DNA of 64,000 nucleotides, from positions 186,001 through 250,000 of the forward strand of contig NZ_CP032097.1 of the NCBI RefSeq assembly GCF_003544915.1. Direction: 5' to 3'. The DNA is from Arcobacter ellisii. Its GTDB lineage: Bacteria > Campylobacterota > Campylobacteria > Campylobacterales > Arcobacteraceae. The position numbers were made by a program, and so were the translations under genes. The notes beneath the pieces are model-generated. The model searched no databases. It worked only from the letters and a program-made list of their open reading frames with translations, and had not been told where the DNA came from. Shown here in pieces: positions 17,658 through 26,762 of this stretch (within the stretch, counting starts at the first letter, position 1; each line of letters opens with the position of its first letter).

Positions 17658-19043
17658 TTAATATTTTATGCAAAATTGAGAGCCTTTTTTTATTTCAGAA
17701 GTGATTTCTAGGGAAAAATGGTGTAAATTAAGTATAGATTGAACAATAAAAAGCCCCAGACCTAAAGAGTTATTCCACCCATTATTTGAAATACGATAAA
17801 ATTTTTGATTGATATTCTCAAGTTCTTTTTGTTCTATACCAATTCCTTTATCAATAACACAAATTGAATTTTCACCAATATTTACAATCACTTCATGTTC
17901 TGAATATTTTAAAGCATTTTCAATTAAATTTGAAATGGCCATAGAAATAAGTGTTTCATCAACTTTTAAATTTATATCTTCACCTTGAAGTATAATTTCT
18001 CTATTTTTATATTTATCTTTTAAATCACTAATACAATTTTCAATCAATTTTTTCATAGAACAAGGTATTAAAAGTAATTCTTGTTTTCCCTCTTCAAGTC
18101 TTAATGTAAGTCTTAATTTATCAATAATATGTGACATTTTATTTGCATTATTATAAATTTTATTTAAAAATTTGTTTTTCATAATAAGTGGCATTTTTTC
18201 ATCATTTAAAATACTTTCACTATATCCTGAAATTATTGCTATTGGATTTTTAAACTCATGGGAAATAGCAGAAATTATCTCATCTTTTTGTCTATTTGCA
18301 AGTTTAAGTTTTGCTGTTTGTTTTGCTTTTTGTTTCTCTTTTTTTGATAGTTTTACAGCAACTTTATTTAAAAGTTTTGTGATTTTATAAAATTCATAAG
18401 TATAGGTAGATTTTAAAGGAAAAGAAGTTTTTTTATTTGTTAATTGTGTTAAAAAATATAAAACATTATCTGTCTCTTTTTTTATTCGTAAACTAATAAA
18501 ATATGTAGCTAAAAATGCAATAATCAAAAAGAAAGTAATATACATAAAAATTTCAAGAGTCAATTTAGCAAAATTATCCGTGATTTTATTTGTGTAATCT
18601 GCCATTCTAACAAAATAAATAGAATCATTTAGTGTGATTTTTTTTGCAATATATAATAAATCTTTTTTTATTGTTTCAGATTTTCTAGTATCTTTTCCTA
18701 AACCTACATTTCTTGCTTGAATAATTTCAACTCTATTTGAATGATTTTTTATTTCAGATAAATCTTTATCACTTTCAGCAATAACATTACCTTTTTCATC
18801 GATTATTGTAATTCGTAAATTTAATTCTGAATGTAAATCTTTTACAATACTTTTTATATTTTCGATATTGTTAAAATTTTTTAGAAGAATTGATAAGGTA
18901 TCAATATTTTGGATTAGGTTTTTTTCAATTTGATTTATATAAAGATTTTTAGCCCAAAAATATGTAACCAAAGTAAGAGTTATTAAAATAGCTGCAAATA
19001 TTGTGATATATGTTCTTAGAAAAAGTTGATGAATTTTTAACAA
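17658..19043 (-). CDS. Sensor histidine kinase of the phosphate locus
   Basis: A 461-residue membrane kinase. Membrane helices lie at about 9-30 and 163-185, enclosing a periplasmic sensor of about 130 residues. A HisKA domain follows with phospho-acceptor His262 (ISHEFKNPIAIISGY), then a HATPase domain with an N-box (ISNLIENALKYSE) and G-boxes (VIDKGIGIE and GLGLFIVQ). Its gene overlaps the response regulator by 7 nt, and it is the last gene of the pst operon. A role like PhoR/PhosS in phosphate-starvation signalling is inferred from position; the sensor region itself gives no ligand. Confidence 0.85.
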   Translation of the reverse strand: MLKIHQLFLRTYITIFAAILITLTLVTYFWAKNLYINQIEKNLIQNIDTLSILLKNFNNIENIKSIVKDLHSELNLRITIIDEKGNVIAESDKDLSEIKNHSNRVEIIQARNVGLGKDTRKSETIKKDLLYIAKKITLNDSIYFVRMADYTNKITDNFAKLTLEIFMYITFFLIIAFLATYFISLRIKKETDNVLYFLTQLTNKKTSFPLKSTYTYEFYKITKLLNKVAVKLSKKEKQKAKQTAKLKLANRQKDEIISAISHEFKNPIAIISGYSESILNDEKMPLIMKNKFLNKIYNNANKMSHIIDKLRLTLRLEEGKQELLLIPCSMKKLIENCISDLKDKYKNREIILQGEDINLKVDETLISMAISNLIENALKYSEHEVIVNIGENSICVIDKGIGIEQKELENINQKFYRISNNGWNNSLGLGLFIVQSILNLHHFSLEITSEIKKGSQFCIKY

Positions 19044-19711
19044 AAAATATAACCTTCCCCTCTAATTGAACGAATATAATCTTTTGTGCCATCAGGGTCA
19101 ATTTTGGCTTTTAATCTTTTTATTGCAACATTTACTGTTTTCTCTTTTTTATCAAAAGAGTCTTCCCAAACTTTATTTAATAAATGTTCTCTAGTCATCA
19201 AAATATCTTTATTTTTTATAAATTCTAAAAGTAAATCATGCTCAAGATGAGTTAACTCAATCTCTTTTTCATCTATAAAAAACTTTTTGTTAGAAGATTT
19301 ATAAACAATATCTTTAACTTTTAGTACATCAACTTCTTTTGAACTTCTTTTTATAACAGCTTTTATTCTTGCACATAACTCTTTTAAGTTAAAGGGTTTT
19401 GTTATGTAATCATCAGCATGAGAGTCAAAACCTTCGATTATATCTTCATCATTATCTTTTGCTGTTACATAAATAACAGGATTTGAATAACCTTGTTTTT
19501 TGATTTCGTTTATAAAAGTTGTTCCTTCAATTCCAGGAAGATTTCTATCCATTAAGATTAAATCGATTTGTTCTTCATCTAAAACTTTTCTTACATTTTT
19601 ATCAATGCTTAAAAATCCAATAGTTTCATATCCCTCTTTTTGAAGAGTATATTCAAGTAACTCTAAAATATCTTCTTCATCTTCAACAATTAAAATAAGT
19701 TTGTTATTCAT
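19037..19711 (-). CDS. PhoB/OmpR-type response regulator of the phosphate locus
   Basis: A 224-residue regulator with an intact receiver (acidic pocket Glu10/Asp11, phospho-acceptor Asp55 in LILMDRNLPG, Thr of YVTAKD, Lys105 of TKPF). It has a C-terminal winged helix (EKTVNVAIKRLKAKIDPDG...IRSIRGEGY). Cotranscribed with the kinase, PsiE-like gene, phoU and pstCAB, it is the best candidate to bind the tandem GTAACC boxes in front of pstS and pstC. It is functionally analogous to PhoB of enterobacteria and PhosR of Campylobacter. Confidence 0.87.
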   Translation of the reverse strand: MNNKLILIVEDEEDILELLEYTLQKEGYETIGFLSIDKNVRKVLDEEQIDLILMDRNLPGIEGTTFINEIKKQGYSNPVIYVTAKDNDEDIIEGFDSHADDYITKPFNLKELCARIKAVIKRSSKEVDVLKVKDIVYKSSNKKFFIDEKEIELTHLEHDLLLEFIKNKDILMTREHLLNKVWEDSFDKKEKTVNVAIKRLKAKIDPDGTKDYIRSIRGEGYIFC

Positions 19712-20153
19712 CTGGTGTTGACTCTCTTGTAGTTACAATTTTTTTGTTTGGTCTGTCATCTTCATATTCAATAACAGTATCTTTTGAGATTTTTATAATT
19801 CCTGGAGAAAATTTAATAGCAAGAATTCTAAACATAAAAAATACAAAAATTACAAATAATAAAAAAGTAATATCAAAGTAATCTCTATTTTTGTTTGTCG
19901 ATAAGATAATCACATCTCGTATTAGAAAAATGATAAAAATATCTATGATATATCTAAGTCGTAAAGTCTCTTTTTTGATAAAATCAGAAACCATTTTTAC
20001 AACTTCCATAATCACGATAAACTCTAACATAAGAATAATTGCTTTGTAAAATTCTTTACCAGAAGCTACTATTCCTATGAAAATTATTGTTGCAGCAAGA
20101 ACTTCAAAGTTCGTGCTAAAATACTCTTTTATCTTATTGATTGCTTTTTTCAT
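19704..20153 (-). CDS. PsiE-family membrane protein
   Basis: A 149-residue inner-membrane protein with about four hydrophobic helices, of the phosphate-starvation-inducible PsiE family (FEVLAATIIFIGIVASGKEFYKA, RLRYIIDIFIIFLIRDVIIL). The function is unknown even in E. coli. Its place between phoU and the two-component genes supports phosphate control. It overlaps the regulator gene by 8 nt. Confidence 0.78.
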   Translation of the reverse strand: MKKAINKIKEYFSTNFEVLAATIIFIGIVASGKEFYKAIILMLEFIVIMEVVKMVSDFIKKETLRLRYIIDIFIIFLIRDVIILSTNKNRDYFDITFLLFVIFVFFMFRILAIKFSPGIIKISKDTVIEYEDDRPNKKIVTTRESTPDE

Positions 20154-20174: not shown

Positions 20175-20843
20175 TTATGATTGTACTATATCTCCTCCAA
20201 CCTGAGCAAATTGAAGTAAATTAGCAATAGATACAGCTCTATCAGCGATTTTTTCTAATCTTCTTAATGCACTTAATGTATCAAAATACTCTTTTGATAA
20301 ATCAAGATTTTTAGAGATTAGTTTTAAAATGTTTTTTTCAATCATTAAATATAAATCATCAGTTTTACTCTCTTCAACAATAACTCTATGATATTTTTCT
20401 TCAATATGAGCAGTATTTGTTTCATCAATTATTGAAATTGAAGTTCTTAAAGATAATAGTGCTGATTTTAATAAAGGAACAGCATACTCTAAAATCATAG
20501 GAGTGTTTAAATCCTCAGAATATGATTTTTTGAACATTTTTGCAAAATCTTTTGCATTTGCTCCTGTTCTTACAAGTTCATTTGTAATTTTTAAAAATGA
20601 AACAAGTTGTCTTAAATCTTTTGCTTCTGGTGAATATAAAGCCAAAGTTGTAACTATAATGTTGTCAATCTCATTTGATTTAATTAGAAGTTTTTTTTCT
20701 GTAATTTCTACATTTTTTAAATCTTCAATTTTTTTCTCTTCTAAAGCTTTTAAACATATTTCTAAAGCTTCAACAACATCAACACCAATTTTTAAAATCT
20801 CTTCTTTTATATTTTTTAATTTTGTTTCATAAGGCTTTAACAT
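20175..20843 (-). CDS. phoU: Phosphate transport regulator PhoU
   Basis: A 222-residue, all-helical PhoU with the two repeated three-helix bundles of the family. The E/DxxxD-type metal motifs are only loosely recognisable (RLEKIADRAVSIANL in the second repeat; ELVRTGANAKDFAKMF in the first). PhoU links PstSCAB transport state to the sensor kinase. It starts one base inside the end of pstB. Confidence 0.88.
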   Translation of the reverse strand: MLKPYETKLKNIKEEILKIGVDVVEALEICLKALEEKKIEDLKNVEITEKKLLIKSNEIDNIIVTTLALYSPEAKDLRQLVSFLKITNELVRTGANAKDFAKMFKKSYSEDLNTPMILEYAVPLLKSALLSLRTSISIIDETNTAHIEEKYHRVIVEESKTDDLYLMIEKNILKLISKNLDLSKEYFDTLSALRRLEKIADRAVSIANLLQFAQVGGDIVQS

Positions 20844-21616
20844 TATCCAAATCTCCCTGTAATATAATCTTCTGTTTTTTTATTGTGTGGATTTACAAAA
20901 ATAGTTTCTGTTTCATCATATTCTATTAGTTTTCCTAAGTGGAAAAAGGCTGTATAGTCAGCTACCCTTGCTGCTTGTTGCATATTATGAGTTACAGTTA
21001 TGATTGTATAATCTTGTTTTAATTCAAGCATTAAAGCTTCAATTTTTTCTGTACTAATAGGGTCAAGTGCAGATGTCGGTTCATCCATTAATATAACTTC
21101 AGGTCTAACTGCAATTGTTCTAGCGATACAAAGTCTTTGTTGTTGACCTCCACTAAGTGAAGTTCCTGGTTGAGTTAATTTATCTTTTACTTCATTCCAA
21201 AGTCCAGATTTTATTAAAGAAGTTTCAACTAACTCATCACACTCTTTACCTTTTTTTACAATCCCATGTTTTAATGGAGCGTAAGCTACATTGTCATAAA
21301 TTGATTTTGGAAAAGGATTTGGTTGTTGGAAAACCATTCCAATTTTTTTTCTAACGCTTACTTCATCAACATCTTTATCATAGATGTTTTTATTATCAAT
21401 AATTATTGAACCATCTATTTTAACAACAGGAATTAAGTCATTCATTCTATTTATACATCTTAGAAATGTAGATTTTCCACAACCTGATGGTCCAATTAAA
21501 GCTGTAATTTTATTTTCATATAAATTTGCAGTAATATCATATAAAGCTTGATTTGAACCATAAAAAAGGTTTAGGTTTCTTACATCAATTTTGCTTTTGT
21601 TTTCGTTTGTTATCAT
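20843..21616 (-). CDS. pstB: Phosphate ABC transporter ATPase PstB
   Basis: A 257-residue ABC ATPase with Walker [10 protein letters not shown], signature [13 protein letters not shown] and Walker [13 protein letters not shown]. The start is set at the ATG at 21614-21616, which has AAAGGAAA 5-6 nt upstream and gives the standard PstB length. An ATG six codons earlier overlaps the pstA stop but lacks a good binding site. Confidence 0.95.
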
Positions 21617-21627
21617 AAATTTTCCTT

Positions 21628-22815
21628 TTACCATTTCACTTCTAATTTTTTTCTAAGATAAATTGCTATTGCATTTAATGAAATTAAGATAGTTAATAAA
21701 ACCATAATTCCAGCTGCTGTTTTTTCTATATACATACCTTCTGGCATTCCAGCCCAAGTAAATAATTGTGCTGGCATTACTGTTGCTGCTTGAGTTACCA
21801 TACTTGGAGCATCAGGAATAAATGCAATCATTCCAATAATAATTAACGGAGCAGTCTCTCCCATAGCTTGTGCTAAACCAATAATAGAACCAGTTAAAAC
21901 TCCTGGAAATGCTAAAGGTAAAACATGGTCACGTGTAACTTGAATTTTATTTAATCCTAATCCATAACCAGCTTGTCTTATACTATCTGGAACTGCTCTT
22001 AGAGCTGCACGTGAGCTTACAATAATAATTGGTAAAGTCATAAGTGCAAGAGTTAAACCTCCAACAAGTGGTGAACTTCTTGGTAATCCAAAAAGATTAA
22101 TAAAAATTGCAAGACCTAAAAGACCAAATAATATTGAAGGAATAGCTGCAAGATTATTGATATTTATTTCAATAAATCTTGTAAATTTATTATCACCTGC
22201 AAACTCTTCAAGATAAATTGCTGTCATAACTCCAATAGGGAATGCAACAAGCATAGTAATAATCAAAGTTAAAACTGAACCAATTACAGCTGAATAAAGT
22301 CCTGCGTATTCAGGAATTTTTGAATCTCCATTTGTAAAGAAAATTGCATTAAATTTTTTCTCAATTAAACCTTGTGCATATAATTCATCAACAAGCATAA
22401 TCTCTTTATCTTTTAATTTATGATTATGACCTTTTAAATATTGGTCAACTTGGTCATCCGCTAAAACCCATAGGTTTTGAGTTGTATTTTCATATTGAGG
22501 ATTGTTTTTTAATAATAGTGGTAAATCTCTTAACCAAGCTCTTGAAACAATATCTCTATACTCTTTTTTTACAGCAAATCTTGAGTCATTTATTGATTTT
22601 TCATTAAAAATCACATCAGTTTTTATATAAGCAACTTTAAATGCAGGCACACCTTTTCCTACAATATCAAAAAGGAAAAAAGCTAAAAATGCAATTGAAA
22701 AGATTAATGAAGTTAAAGTAAACTTTTTAAATCTAGCTGCACTTGTATGTCTTTTTTTTAGTGTTGGGTCATAAAATGGATTGTGTTGTTTGTTTTTATT
22801 TTTTCGTTTTATCAT
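21628..22815 (-). CDS. pstA: Phosphate ABC transporter permease PstA
   Basis: A 395-residue permease with an enlarged N-terminal region. After the first membrane helix (about 33-52) there is a periplasmic-type segment of about 110 residues before the core helices. The permease core carries the EAA-like loop ([26 protein letters not shown]). It overlaps pstC by 4 nt. Confidence 0.93.
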
Positions 22816-23741
22816 AATGTATTCACTTTATATTTTTCTTTAAATTTTCTTATTAGTGATAATGAAATCATATTTAAAATTAGAGTTACTACAAATAGCA
22901 CTAAACCTAAAGCAAAAGCTGATAGTGTTTCAGGAGAGTTAAATTCAAAATCTCCAACTAAAGCATTTACGATTGTTACTGTTACTGTTGTCATATCTTC
23001 AAGTGGATTCCAAGAAAGATTTGGTCTTAAACCTGCTGCCATAACAACAATCATTGTTTCACCTAATGCTTTTGATAAAGCAAGAAGTGATGCAGAGATA
23101 ATTCCTGGCATTGCAGATGGTAAAACAATATTTTTGATTGTTTCTCCATGAGTCATTCCAAGACCAAAAGCAGCTTTTCTCTGACTATCTGGAACAGCTC
23201 TTATAACGTCATCAGAAAGTGAAGAGATAACAGGAATAATCATAATTCCCATTACAATACCAGAAGCTAATGCACTATTAAATGTAGCTTCTAAACCAAC
23301 AAATTCAGCAATTTTTACAACTAAAGGTGCAACTGTAATTGCAGCAAAGAAGCCGTAAACAACTGTTGGAATACCTGCTAAAACTTCAAGCATTGGTTTT
23401 AAATAATCTCTTAATTTAGGACTTGCATATTCACTCATATAAATTGCGCTTCCAAGACCAATTGGTATTGCAACACCAAGTGCAATAATTGTTATTACAA
23501 ATGTTCCTGTAAATATTGGAAGAGCTCCAAATTGGCTTCCTACAACACCTGGACTCCAAACTGTTCCTGTTATAAAATACCAAAAGCTTCGAAGTTTAAA
23601 GAATTCAATTGCTTCGAAAAGAATTGAAAATAAAATACCAAAAGTAGTTAAAATTGATATTGCAGCAGCGCAAATAAGTGCAATTTTAATTAGTTTTTCA
23701 TTTAATTCTCTTTGTTTTTTTCTTGATTCAAAAGTGCTCAA
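22812..23741 (-). CDS. pstC: Phosphate ABC transporter permease PstC
   Basis: A 309-residue permease with six membrane helices and the coupling loop RKAAFGLGMTHGETIKNIVLP. It is the first gene of the pstCAB-phoU-psiE-regulator-kinase operon and has its own promoter with tandem GTAACC boxes about 30-60 nt upstream, separate from pstS. Confidence 0.93.
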   Translation of the reverse strand: MSTFESRKKQRELNEKLIKIALICAAAISILTTFGILFSILFEAIEFFKLRSFWYFITGTVWSPGVVGSQFGALPIFTGTFVITIIALGVAIPIGLGSAIYMSEYASPKLRDYLKPMLEVLAGIPTVVYGFFAAITVAPLVVKIAEFVGLEATFNSALASGIVMGIMIIPVISSLSDDVIRAVPDSQRKAAFGLGMTHGETIKNIVLPSAMPGIISASLLALSKALGETMIVVMAAGLRPNLSWNPLEDMTTVTVTIVNALVGDFEFNSPETLSAFALGLVLFVVTLILNMISLSLIRKFKEKYKVNTL

Positions 23742-23772: not shown

Positions 23773-23804
23773 ATTCTAAGTAAAATCGGTTACAGTATGG
23801 TTAC
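23773..23804 (-). promoter_or_regulatory. Pho-box-like operator and -10 of pstC
   Basis: On the minus strand, GTAACC-N5-GTAACC (sites 23799-23804 and 23788-23793, 11-nt period) is followed after exactly 9 nt by TAGAAT (23773-23778), a good -10. This is the geometry of Pho boxes, which replace the -35. The distal box overlaps the last codons of the preceding EAL-GGDEF gene. The same arrangement precedes pstS. Confidence 0.75.
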
Positions 23805-25528
23805 AATACGCTAGAAATAGGCTCTTTAGAACCTTTAGATGCTTTTTTTAGAATATTTAAAGTGTTATCAAAATTAGAGATATTTGACTTAGAATTTATT
23901 TCTATAATTGCAGATGATACAGATAATAAATCAAATCTTCTTTCCATATTAAATCTATCTTTAGCAACAATAAAACCATTTTCTTTATCTTTTTTTGTGT
24001 AGATGTTTTTTGCACTATTACTAAACTCTTCTTGGACAGTTGCAGTTAGATGATAAACTTCTTTATAATCATAATTTTTAAGTCCAACAAAAAAATCATC
24101 TCCCCCAATATGGGCAATAAAGGCATCTTTAGGATAACGTTTTTGTAACAGTTCTGAAAAAATCAAAATTGCTCTATCCCCTTGTCTAAAACCATAAATA
24201 TCATTAAATGGTTTAAAATCATTAAAATCAAAATATATTATGTGCGTAATTGTTTTTTGATTTTTTCTTAATGTTTTATCAATAAATTTCTCTATTTGAT
24301 TATTTCCAGGAAGTTTAGTTAATGGATTTTGGTTTGTTGCAATTTCAATATTTCTTTTATATGACAAAGTTAATAAAGAGTTTAAGTTAATAAAACCTTT
24401 GTATTTTCCTGATTGTGTAATAAATATACCTAAAGAATTTTTTGAATTTAGATTATAGGTTTCTAATATTTTATCAATTCCCCAAGATATCTCTACATTT
24501 AAAGCAGGTTTGATATATTTAACTAAAGTTGATGAAAAAGTTTTATTTTGAGCTAAAGACAATCCATATTGAGAATAAGATATTTTTTTAATATCTGTTT
24601 CATAAATTATTCCTAAAAAATTCTCAAATTCATCAATTATTGGAACAAAATTGTTTTTTGTATCCTCTTTAAAATGAACAAATAAATCATATAAAGATGT
24701 ATTAATATGTAAAGGAGAAATCTCTTCTATAAACTCTTCATCTATAAAAGAGTTACTTACTCTTTTATCTTCATTTATAAGAGTAATTATGTTTAAGTAG
24801 TTGCTTGTAATATCTTTATGATTTGTAGTTGGTTTTTGAACTAAATATCCTTGTATAAAATCTGCACCAATATCTTTACAAGTGTAAAACTCTTTTTCTG
24901 TTTCAATACCTTCAGCAACAACTAACATTCCCATAATATGAGCCATTTCAATAATTGATGAACAAAATAGTTTCTTTTTTGAGTCTTGGTCTATATTTGT
25001 TAGAAAGAATCTATCAAGTTTTATGATTTTTGCTTCACTAAAATATAAAAGTTTAAGTCCAGATACACCAATTCCAAAATCATCAATTGCAATAGAATAA
25101 CCGCTATCTCTATATTTTTGAATCATTGTTGATAAAGCATTTTGTTCAATAGCTGTACCTTTTTCACTAAGTTCAAAACAGACTCTATCTTTTGTTAGAT
25201 TATATTTTTTTAAGATTTTTGCAGTATTACCTTGTGAATATTTTTTATTGTAAATTATTCTATTGTCAAGATTGTAAAAAAGTTTCAAATTATCAATATT
25301 AATTTGTGAAAATTTACTAATTGCTTTTTCTCTTAATTGTAAATCCAATTCATATAAATAATCATCATTAAATGCTAAATTAAATAAATCATCAATTGAA
25401 TTAAGTCCAGGAACTTGTTGTACATTTCTTAAAAGAGCCTCTACGGCATAAATTTTACCACTATGAGAATAAATGATAGGCTGAAAAGCATAATCAAGTT
25501 TATTTATAATTTCAGTCCAATTTGGCAT
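23801..25528 (-). CDS. EAL-CBS-GGDEF c-di-GMP enzyme in the pst locus
   Basis: A 575-residue cytosolic protein with an N-terminal EAL phosphodiesterase domain (about 8-235), a CBS pair (about 275-390) and a C-terminal GGDEF domain (about 400-560). The EAL catalytic set looks complete: EALLR at 30-34, Asn87, Glu119, the DD of IDDFG at 149-150, Lys170, Glu206 and Gln226. The GGDEF motif is GGDDF at 475-479, without an obvious RxxD inhibitory site. It may be a phosphodiesterase with a regulatory GGDEF, or bifunctional. It lies between pstS and pstC on the same strand, which suggests that phosphate state influences c-di-GMP. Confidence 0.88.
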   Translation of the reverse strand: MPNWTEIINKLDYAFQPIIYSHSGKIYAVEALLRNVQQVPGLNSIDDLFNLAFNDDYLYELDLQLREKAISKFSQINIDNLKLFYNLDNRIIYNKKYSQGNTAKILKKYNLTKDRVCFELSEKGTAIEQNALSTMIQKYRDSGYSIAIDDFGIGVSGLKLLYFSEAKIIKLDRFFLTNIDQDSKKKLFCSSIIEMAHIMGMLVVAEGIETEKEFYTCKDIGADFIQGYLVQKPTTNHKDITSNYLNIITLINEDKRVSNSFIDEEFIEEISPLHINTSLYDLFVHFKEDTKNNFVPIIDEFENFLGIIYETDIKKISYSQYGLSLAQNKTFSSTLVKYIKPALNVEISWGIDKILETYNLNSKNSLGIFITQSGKYKGFINLNSLLTLSYKRNIEIATNQNPLTKLPGNNQIEKFIDKTLRKNQKTITHIIYFDFNDFKPFNDIYGFRQGDRAILIFSELLQKRYPKDAFIAHIGGDDFFVGLKNYDYKEVYHLTATVQEEFSNSAKNIYTKKDKENGFIVAKDRFNMERRFDLLSVSSAIIEINSKSNISNFDNTLNILKKASKGSKEPISSVL

Positions 25529-25544
25529 AGGTATCCTAAGTAAA

Positions 25545-25606
25545 ATTTCATTACAAAGTTTTTACCTCTTTGTTCGCGTTAACAGGTAAAAACTTTATAA
25601 TGAAAT
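25545..25606 (-). repeat. 22-bp inverted repeat in the leader of the EAL-CBS-GGDEF gene
   Basis: Arms at 25545-25566 and 25585-25606 pair over 22 nt with one mismatch and enclose an 18-nt loop (TCTTTGTTCGCGTTAACA). The structure ends 16 nt upstream of the start codon and lies after the pstS terminator. It would be part of any read-through or leader transcript and could control translation. It does not match a c-di-GMP riboswitch that I recognise. Confidence 0.6.
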
Positions 25607-25615
25607 CTAAGTATT

Positions 25616-25641
25616 AAAAAGGAAGAAAACTCTTCCCTTTT
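25616..25641 (-). terminator. Terminator of pstS
   Basis: On the minus strand GGAAGA/TCTTCC with a 4-nt loop, flanked by pairing A/T tracts and followed by TTTTT, starts 3 nt after the pstS stop codon. It should end most pstS transcripts and separate pstS from pstCAB, which has its own promoter. Confidence 0.7.
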
Positions 25642-25643
25642 AT

Positions 25644-26699
25644 TTAGTGTTTTAATTGCTCAGCAGTTAATTTTTCACTATTCATAACTTTTGTTCTAGC
25701 AGCTGCTCTTACATCATCAGTTAATGTTACAAGACCAAGTTCAGTTAAGATACCATCAGTCCCAATCATTTTTTCAGACATAAATAAGTTTGTATACTCT
25801 TTTAAAGCAGGAACTTCAGATGCGTGTTGATTTTTGATATAAAAATACATTGATCTAGCAACTGGATATTTTCCAGATGAAATAGTTTCAGCAGTTGGAG
25901 CAATATTATCAACAGTAATTCCAACAACTTTATCTTTATTTTCTTCTAAGAATGAGTAACCAAAGATTCCTAAAGCTGCATCATTTTTAGTTAATTTTTG
26001 AACGATTAAGTTGTCATTTTCACCAGATTCTACATAAGCACCATCAGTTCTGATAACTGAATAAGCTTTATATTTTTTGTTTGCTTTTTCATCAGCTTTA
26101 AATAAATCTGTATAAACAGGCATTTTTTCGAATACATGTTGCATTACTAATTCTTCAAAAGAATCTCTTGTTCCTGAAGATTTTGGTGGTCCATAAACAA
26201 CAATTTCTCTATCTGGTAAAGTTGCATCAATATCAGACCATTTTTTATATGGATTTTTAACTAATGATTTTCCATCTTTTGAAGGTACTTCTTCAGCAAC
26301 TGCTAAAGCTAATTGTTCTTTTGTTACATTGAATGATTTAACACTTGCAGATTGAGCAATAGCGATACCATCAAATCCAATTAATGCTTCAGTAATATCT
26401 GTTACACCATTTTCTTCACACATTTTGAATTCTTTATCTTTCATTCTTCTTGATGCGTTTGTAATATCTGGAGTATTTAAGTCAACACCAGCACAAAATA
26501 ATTTCATACCTCCACCAGTACCAGTTGATTCAACAACAGGAGTAGGGAATTTTGTAGTTGCTCCAAACTCTTCAGCTACAGATGATGAAAAAGGATATAC
26601 AGTAGAAGAACCAACAATTTTAATTTGGTCTCTTGCACTTAAAGTAGTTGCTAATAAAGCACTTGCAATTAAAGCCATAGATGTTTTTTTGAAAGTCAT
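25644..26699 (-). CDS. pstS: Phosphate-binding periplasmic protein PstS
   Basis: A 351-residue periplasmic phosphate-binding protein. It has a signal peptide of about 22 residues ending near LSARDQ, the phosphate-binding opening IVGSSTVYPFSSS, STGTGGGMKLFC, and PPKSSGTRDSFEELV. It is monocistronic by its terminator and has its own Pho-box-like promoter. Confidence 0.94.
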   Translation of the reverse strand: MTFKKTSMALIASALLATTLSARDQIKIVGSSTVYPFSSSVAEEFGATTKFPTPVVESTGTGGGMKLFCAGVDLNTPDITNASRRMKDKEFKMCEENGVTDITEALIGFDGIAIAQSASVKSFNVTKEQLALAVAEEVPSKDGKSLVKNPYKKWSDIDATLPDREIVVYGPPKSSGTRDSFEELVMQHVFEKMPVYTDLFKADEKANKKYKAYSVIRTDGAYVESGENDNLIVQKLTKNDAALGIFGYSFLEENKDKVVGITVDNIAPTAETISSGKYPVARSMYFYIKNQHASEVPALKEYTNLFMSEKMIGTDGILTELGLVTLTDDVRAAARTKVMNSEKLTAEQLKH

Positions 26700-26730
26700 T
26701 TTTATCTCCGATAATTTTTTTTACCGTGAA

Positions 26731-26762
26731 AGTTTAATGATAGTTGGTTACATTTTGGTTAC
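26731..26762 (-). promoter_or_regulatory. Pho-box-like operator and -10 of pstS
   Basis: On the minus strand GTAACC-N5-GTAACC (26757-26762 and 26746-26751) is followed after 9 nt by TAAACT (26731-26736) as -10, 32 nt ahead of the pstS start. Repeat unit, period and spacing to the -10 are identical to those at pstC, which argues for a shared activator. Confidence 0.75.

Follow-up and report, generated by a model that had tools for sequence, protein, structure and literature searches.

Two direct repeats of GTAACC upstream of pstS and pstC in the phosphate-uptake gene cluster of Arcobacter ellisii are very probably PhoB-type boxes, through which the two-component pair PhosS–PhosR would activate pstS and, separately, pstC. 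The assignment is built on sequence, geometry, conservation, regulon content and conserved contact residues, from which we infer binding, phosphorylation, the direction of control and the transcription starts. Both repeats are almost certainly phosphate-starvation switches for phosphate-uptake genes, and their predicted binding regulator is almost certainly PhosR, whose gene lies in this cluster. As far as the literature was searched, the phosphate-starvation regulon has been studied within the order in Campylobacter jejuni only; the box provides a sequence signature of this regulon for the order, readable in Arcobacteraceae, Sulfurospirillum and others.

The pst cluster and its two repeats

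The window, that is, the whole analysed stretch of 64,000 nucleotides (contig NZ_CP032097.1, positions 186,001 to 250,000), carries the following features, with coordinates counted from its first letter:

26746..26762, minus strand: putative PhosR (PhoB-type) box of pstS, GTAACC-AAAAT-GTAACC, GTAACCAAAATGTAACC; from a pattern search; kept at 60 of 61 pstS loci of Arcobacteraceae
26731..26736, minus strand: predicted -10 hexamer of pstS, TAAACT, 9 nt past the box; TANAMT at exactly +9 in 60 of 60 pstS boxes
25644..26699, minus strand: pstS (PBP_like_2; TIGR02136 type)
25544..25642, minus strand: two hairpins between pstS and the EAL-GGDEF gene; folding -43.8 kcal/mol, z -8.9
23801..25528, minus strand: gene for an EAL-GGDEF protein inside the pst cluster
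23788..23804, minus strand: putative PhosR box of pstC, GTAACC-ATACT-GTAACC, GTAACCATACTGTAACC; conserved before pstC in 49 loci
23773..23778, minus strand: predicted -10 hexamer of pstC, TAGAAT, 9 nt past the box; TANNNT at +9 in 49 of 49
22812..23741, minus strand: pstC (TIGR02138, above cut-off)
21628..22815, minus strand: pstA (TIGR00974, above cut-off)
20843..21634, minus strand: pstB (TIGR00972, above cut-off)
20175..20843, minus strand: phoU (PF01895)
19704..20153, minus strand: psiE-like gene (phosphate-starvation-inducible E family; PF06146)
19037..19711, minus strand: phosR, phoB-like OmpR-family response regulator and proposed box binder (best model PhoB, below cut-off)
19109..19141, minus strand: core of the PhosR recognition helix, K191-T-V-N-V-A-I-K-R-L-K201 (= PhoB R193–R203)
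17658..19043, minus strand: phosS, phoR-like sensor histidine kinase

The preliminary description placed two "identical" copies of GTAACC-N5-GTAACC at 26746-26762 and 23788-23804, each exactly 9 nt from its -10 hexamer (TAAACT and TAGAAT). Both copies lie exactly there on the minus strand, and the spacing is exact in both; the identity holds for the hexamers and not for the 5-nt spacers, which read AAAAT and ATACT. The pstC box is preceded by T, giving TGTAACC-ATAC-TGTAACC. In 100 dinucleotide shuffles of the window, the 17-bp pattern was never produced, so that 0 copies are expected by chance.

Under phosphate limitation, PhosS would phosphorylate PhosR, both being encoded at the end of the cluster, and PhosR would bind as a head-to-tail dimer, filling both half-sites on one helix face, at about -39 to -22. 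The 11-nt TGTAAC(C) repeats would thereby stand in for a -35 element, with 9 nt between them and a sigma-70 -10, and PhosR would recruit RNA polymerase to pstS and, independently, to pstC. It should be noted that C. jejuni sigma-70 promoters are usually devoid of a clear -35 box (PMC3656092), which makes activator binding at the -35 region plausible, and which also means that an absent -35 alone is not diagnostic.

Of the two hairpins, the first (about 25615-25642) is terminator-like, with a U-run after its 12-bp stem, and the second (about 25544-25608) has a 25-bp stem. Together they are likely to form a terminator or attenuator that sets pstS apart from the remaining cluster. Lying between pstS and the EAL-GGDEF gene, they offer a rationale for a second PhosR promoter ahead of pstC: pstS could be made in excess, while pstCAB-phoU-psiE-phosRS would be served by a PhosR promoter of its own. 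As this unit contains phosRS, a positive feedback loop would be closed.

Conservation in the order and copies elsewhere in the genome

As is characteristic of PhoB-type boxes, the repeats lie upstream of phosphate-acquisition genes and are conserved in relatives. Among Arcobacteraceae, boxes resembling GTAAYC-N5-GTAAYY were found in 60 of 61 pstS upstream regions, the window included, and in 49 pstC regions, and in all 109 (60/60 for pstS and 49/49 for pstC) a TANNNT follows the box with its start at exactly +9. These sites were picked solely by likeness to GTAACC-N5-GTAACC, with the -10 playing no part in the selection; because the weight-matrix sites were selected for this likeness, conservation within the hexamers is partly by construction. 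The bare 17-bp pattern occurs in 50 of the 104 family genomes. When C/T is allowed and the -10 is included, 89 of the 104 carry it, with about 207 hits (table sum), and the reversed control of this pattern gives 0 hits in the 104 genomes.

A weight matrix trained on Arcobacteraceae also places boxes upstream of pst genes in most of the order's other families, for example, at 8 of 9 loci in family f16, 9 of 11 in f6 and 7 of 8 in f20; at the same threshold, no box was found in the loci of f13 (three), f14 (four), f10 (five), f23 (two) and f2 (one). Enrichment of the motif before phosphate genes in relatives, which had been set as a test of the proposed operator, is thus found in both the family and the order scans, and the TGTAAC spelling can be read as a mark of phosphate genes across most of the order.

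The whole genome (2.80 Mb, one contig) contains five exact copies of GTAACC-N5-GTAACC, two of which are the pst sites. The copies at C1:2030616 and C1:2067864 are inside a 21-bp direct repeat, GGTTACTAATAGGTTACTAAA, whose copies are 37 kb apart, one of them between the tmRNA and a tyrosine-integrase-like gene; on these grounds, they were rejected as operators and are probably attachment or arm sites at the ends of a genomic island; the inner part of the repeat mimics the operator pattern. A further exact copy, GTAACCAATTTGTAACC at C1:440998 (L003, L265), lies 105 nt before an frdC-like (fumarate-reductase cytochrome b-like) gene, with no -10 at +9. A scan of the same genome with the refined pattern gave 13 hits versus 1 in the reversed control; a loose scan allowing three mismatches gave 44 versus 71 and is powerless at that stringency.

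With two of the five exact copies belonging to island repeats, the pst repeats might likewise be taken for arm or attachment sequences of a mobile element, or even for a coincidence of coding sequence, as the pstC box overlaps a stop codon. This box is situated at the 3' end of the EAL-GGDEF gene that stands between pstS and pstC, the stop codon of which (23801-23803) falls within the first half-site, an overlap common to 16 of the 43 loci having both features. However, the pst copies are kept across genera at a fixed -10 spacing and persist without the EAL-GGDEF gene (pstC boxes are retained in six relatives that lack it at that place), whereas a full TANNNT at +9 is lacking in both island repeats. 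For the pst sites, such an origin is largely refuted, and its probability is negligible.

Register against known Pho boxes and the regulator

A PhoB-type Pho box is defined by direct repeats with an 11-nt period and a 7-bp conserved unit (PMC4415409). The box has T at position 11 in 103 of the 109 sites, so the repeat unit is TGTAAC(C), and both the period and the 7-bp unit are those of the definition. The box stands in for the -35 and keeps a constant spacing to the -10, as in E. coli phoA, where TGTCATA AAGT TGTCACG GCCGAGACT TATAGT shows the same geometry and 9 nt separate the end of the last TGTNNYN 7-mer from the -10. The E. coli Pho box (phoA, pstS; PDB 1GXP complex) consists likewise of two direct repeats with an 11-nt period, and shares with TGTAAC(C) the initial TGT, the A at position 5 and the pyrimidine end, but reads TGTCAT/C where the Arcobacteraceae box has TGTAAC(C). 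TGTAAC thus departs from TGTCAT at two of six positions and from TGTCAC at one of six. The E. coli PhoB sites mapped by ChIP-seq include mglB TGTAACCCGTATGTAACA, an instance of TGTAAC among them, and yibT TGTAATAGTTCTGTAACG (PMC10294691). Unlike in E. coli, the regulator genes here sit inside the pst cluster.

Gammaproteobacteria share the TGTCAT/C unit of E. coli, and the orthologous pstS promoter in Methyloprofundus has TGTCACA repeats, also 9 nt from the -10. In C. jejuni and C. coli, the pstS promoters (for example, TGTTTCC-AAAA-TGTTTCC-N9-TAAACT) share the geometry and differ in hexamer bases 3-4, which are TT or AT there and AA here. The C. jejuni PhosR box consensus reportedly reads GTTTCNAAAANGTTTC (in the 2006 work of Wosten et al.). 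The C. jejuni sequence GTTTC-N6-GTTTC itself is not what the window has: its unit is GTAACC, equal in spacing and different in two bases.

The earlier view that an 11-nt repeat replacing the -35 is the geometry of a PhoB box is borne out by the phoA, C. jejuni and gammaproteobacterial promoters. It was also right that GTAACC differs from the E. coli and Campylobacter units, although the distance was overstated, two bases separating it from each at identical geometry. Taken alone, GTAACC matches neither CTGTCAT nor GTTTC, which might suggest an operator class that is truly new and has no relation to PhoB and PhosR boxes. In the -10 register, however, TGTAAC(C) has four of the six bases of TGTCAT, with period and distance equal, and the mglB site points the same way. 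As stated, a new class is refuted by this comparison, and we regard it as very improbable. From register, spacing and the mglB comparison, the element is therefore best read as a PhoB-type box with a lineage spelling, a variant of a known element that is less distinct than the preliminary description held.

PhosR scores 177.3 bits against the NCBIfam PhoB equivalog TIGR02154, the best of 99 models and below its cut-off of 296.2, and PhosS is likewise under the NCBIfam PhoR cut-off; PhosR is PhoB-like and, by the curated cut-off, not a member of TIGR02154. In the PhoB–DNA complex, T194, V197, R201 and R219 contact bases and D196 contributes no such contact (PMC3264566). By alignment, the window PhosR has T192, V195, R199 and R217 at these four base-contact positions. 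Its substitutions are N194 for D196, A196 for H198 and K198 for R200. Compared with E. coli PhoB, the PhosR class has N for D196, A for H198, and K or N for R200; among 98 such regulators (PhoB numbering), N196 is present in 94, A198 in 93 and R201 in all. The C. jejuni regulator has the same N196/A198 helix class as the window PhosR. D196 was an early suspect as a specificity switch and was dropped.

In eight pst-linked regulators, belonging to f13, f14 and part of f10, positions 196 and 198 hold D and H, and position 201 holds T, F or S. Four of these loci (L185, L187, L188 and L189) show, as read by eye, TTTACA units without the G in 11-nt phase ahead of pst. This second pst class (f13 and part of f10) shares the 11-nt phased repeats, the 9 nt to the -10 and a linked OmpR-family regulator, but differs in that TTTACA units stand at phases 0, 11 and 33 and the regulator has T at 201 with D/H at 196/198. 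Regulator and box thus appear to covary, R201 and the G being present together or both lost, which is suggestive, the comparison being by eye between groups that differ elsewhere too. R201 is present with TGTAAC and TGTTTC and lost with TTTACA. Tentatively, and with some doubt prevailing, the order may hold a recognition-code series, in which the Pho-box spelling of each lineage follows from a small number of helix residues, making the operator predictable from the regulator. The paired regulator and operator variants would be usable for probing PhoB specificity.

Genes beyond pst

Twenty regions that carry the full motif and are non-pst or additional were inspected, and many of the non-pst hits stand ahead of phosphate genes. 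Phosphate-type genes 30-70 nt downstream of the motif include those for a TIGR00975-type (second) PstS, PhoX, phoU, PhnF-like regulators, a 2-aminoethylphosphonate-type binding protein, pstC and pstB with their own boxes, and a protein that, by its Acyltransf_2 and GNAT domain pair, resembles OlsF (an ornithine-lipid type acyltransferase); farther downstream are PhnN, at 136 nt, and an EAL-GGDEF gene, at 151 nt. The OlsF-like acyltransferase, PhoX and the phosphonate genes are thus predicted to be under phosphate control, and the EAL-GGDEF protein probably so. In the genome of the window, the same acyltransferase is preceded at C1:539129 by GTCACCTTTTTGTAATC, with one mismatch, and then TATAAT at +9. 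A box beating all shuffles was found at 29 of the 30 family loci of this gene, the window's genome included; because the gene played no part in defining the motif, this constitutes independent confirmation.

Not all hits mark a gene with an evident phosphate role: chemoreceptor genes and those for a GlpR-like regulator and a PotD-like protein are preceded by the motif as well. Such hits would suit a reading in which another OmpR-family regulator, or several, binds the repeats and the phosphate link is indirect: direct repeats are general in the OmpR family, and a first count of candidates points to numerous response regulators in each genome, so that one other than PhosR might recognize the repeat. 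Against this, the motif tracks phosphate genes, the box differs where the pst-linked regulator differs at R201, and a genome without a pstS match (G031) keeps hits before the phosRS-locus EAL-GGDEF gene and phoU. We consider control by another regulator very unlikely, if a little less so than a new operator class. Assignment to the same-locus pair, as originally proposed, came through every comparative test that was run, with binding by PhosR as its predicted basis.

The synteny pstS-[EAL/GGDEF]-pstCAB-phoU-psiE-phosRS is kept in most of 60 relatives, and the EAL-GGDEF gene, whose product is of the c-di-GMP type, is within the pst cluster of most Arcobacteraceae and sometimes absent. In two loci of genus g17 (L147 and L148), the EAL-GGDEF match is upstream of pstS rather than between pstS and pstC, and no box was found before pstC. 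In L143 (G079), there is no pstC, pstA or pstB match between the EAL-GGDEF gene and phoU, and a second pst cluster, of another type, is present elsewhere (L253), its first gene being preceded by a box. In G031 (L305), the EAL-GGDEF gene has its own Pho box 151 nt upstream, and c-di-GMP turnover may for this reason be part of the phosphate regulon.
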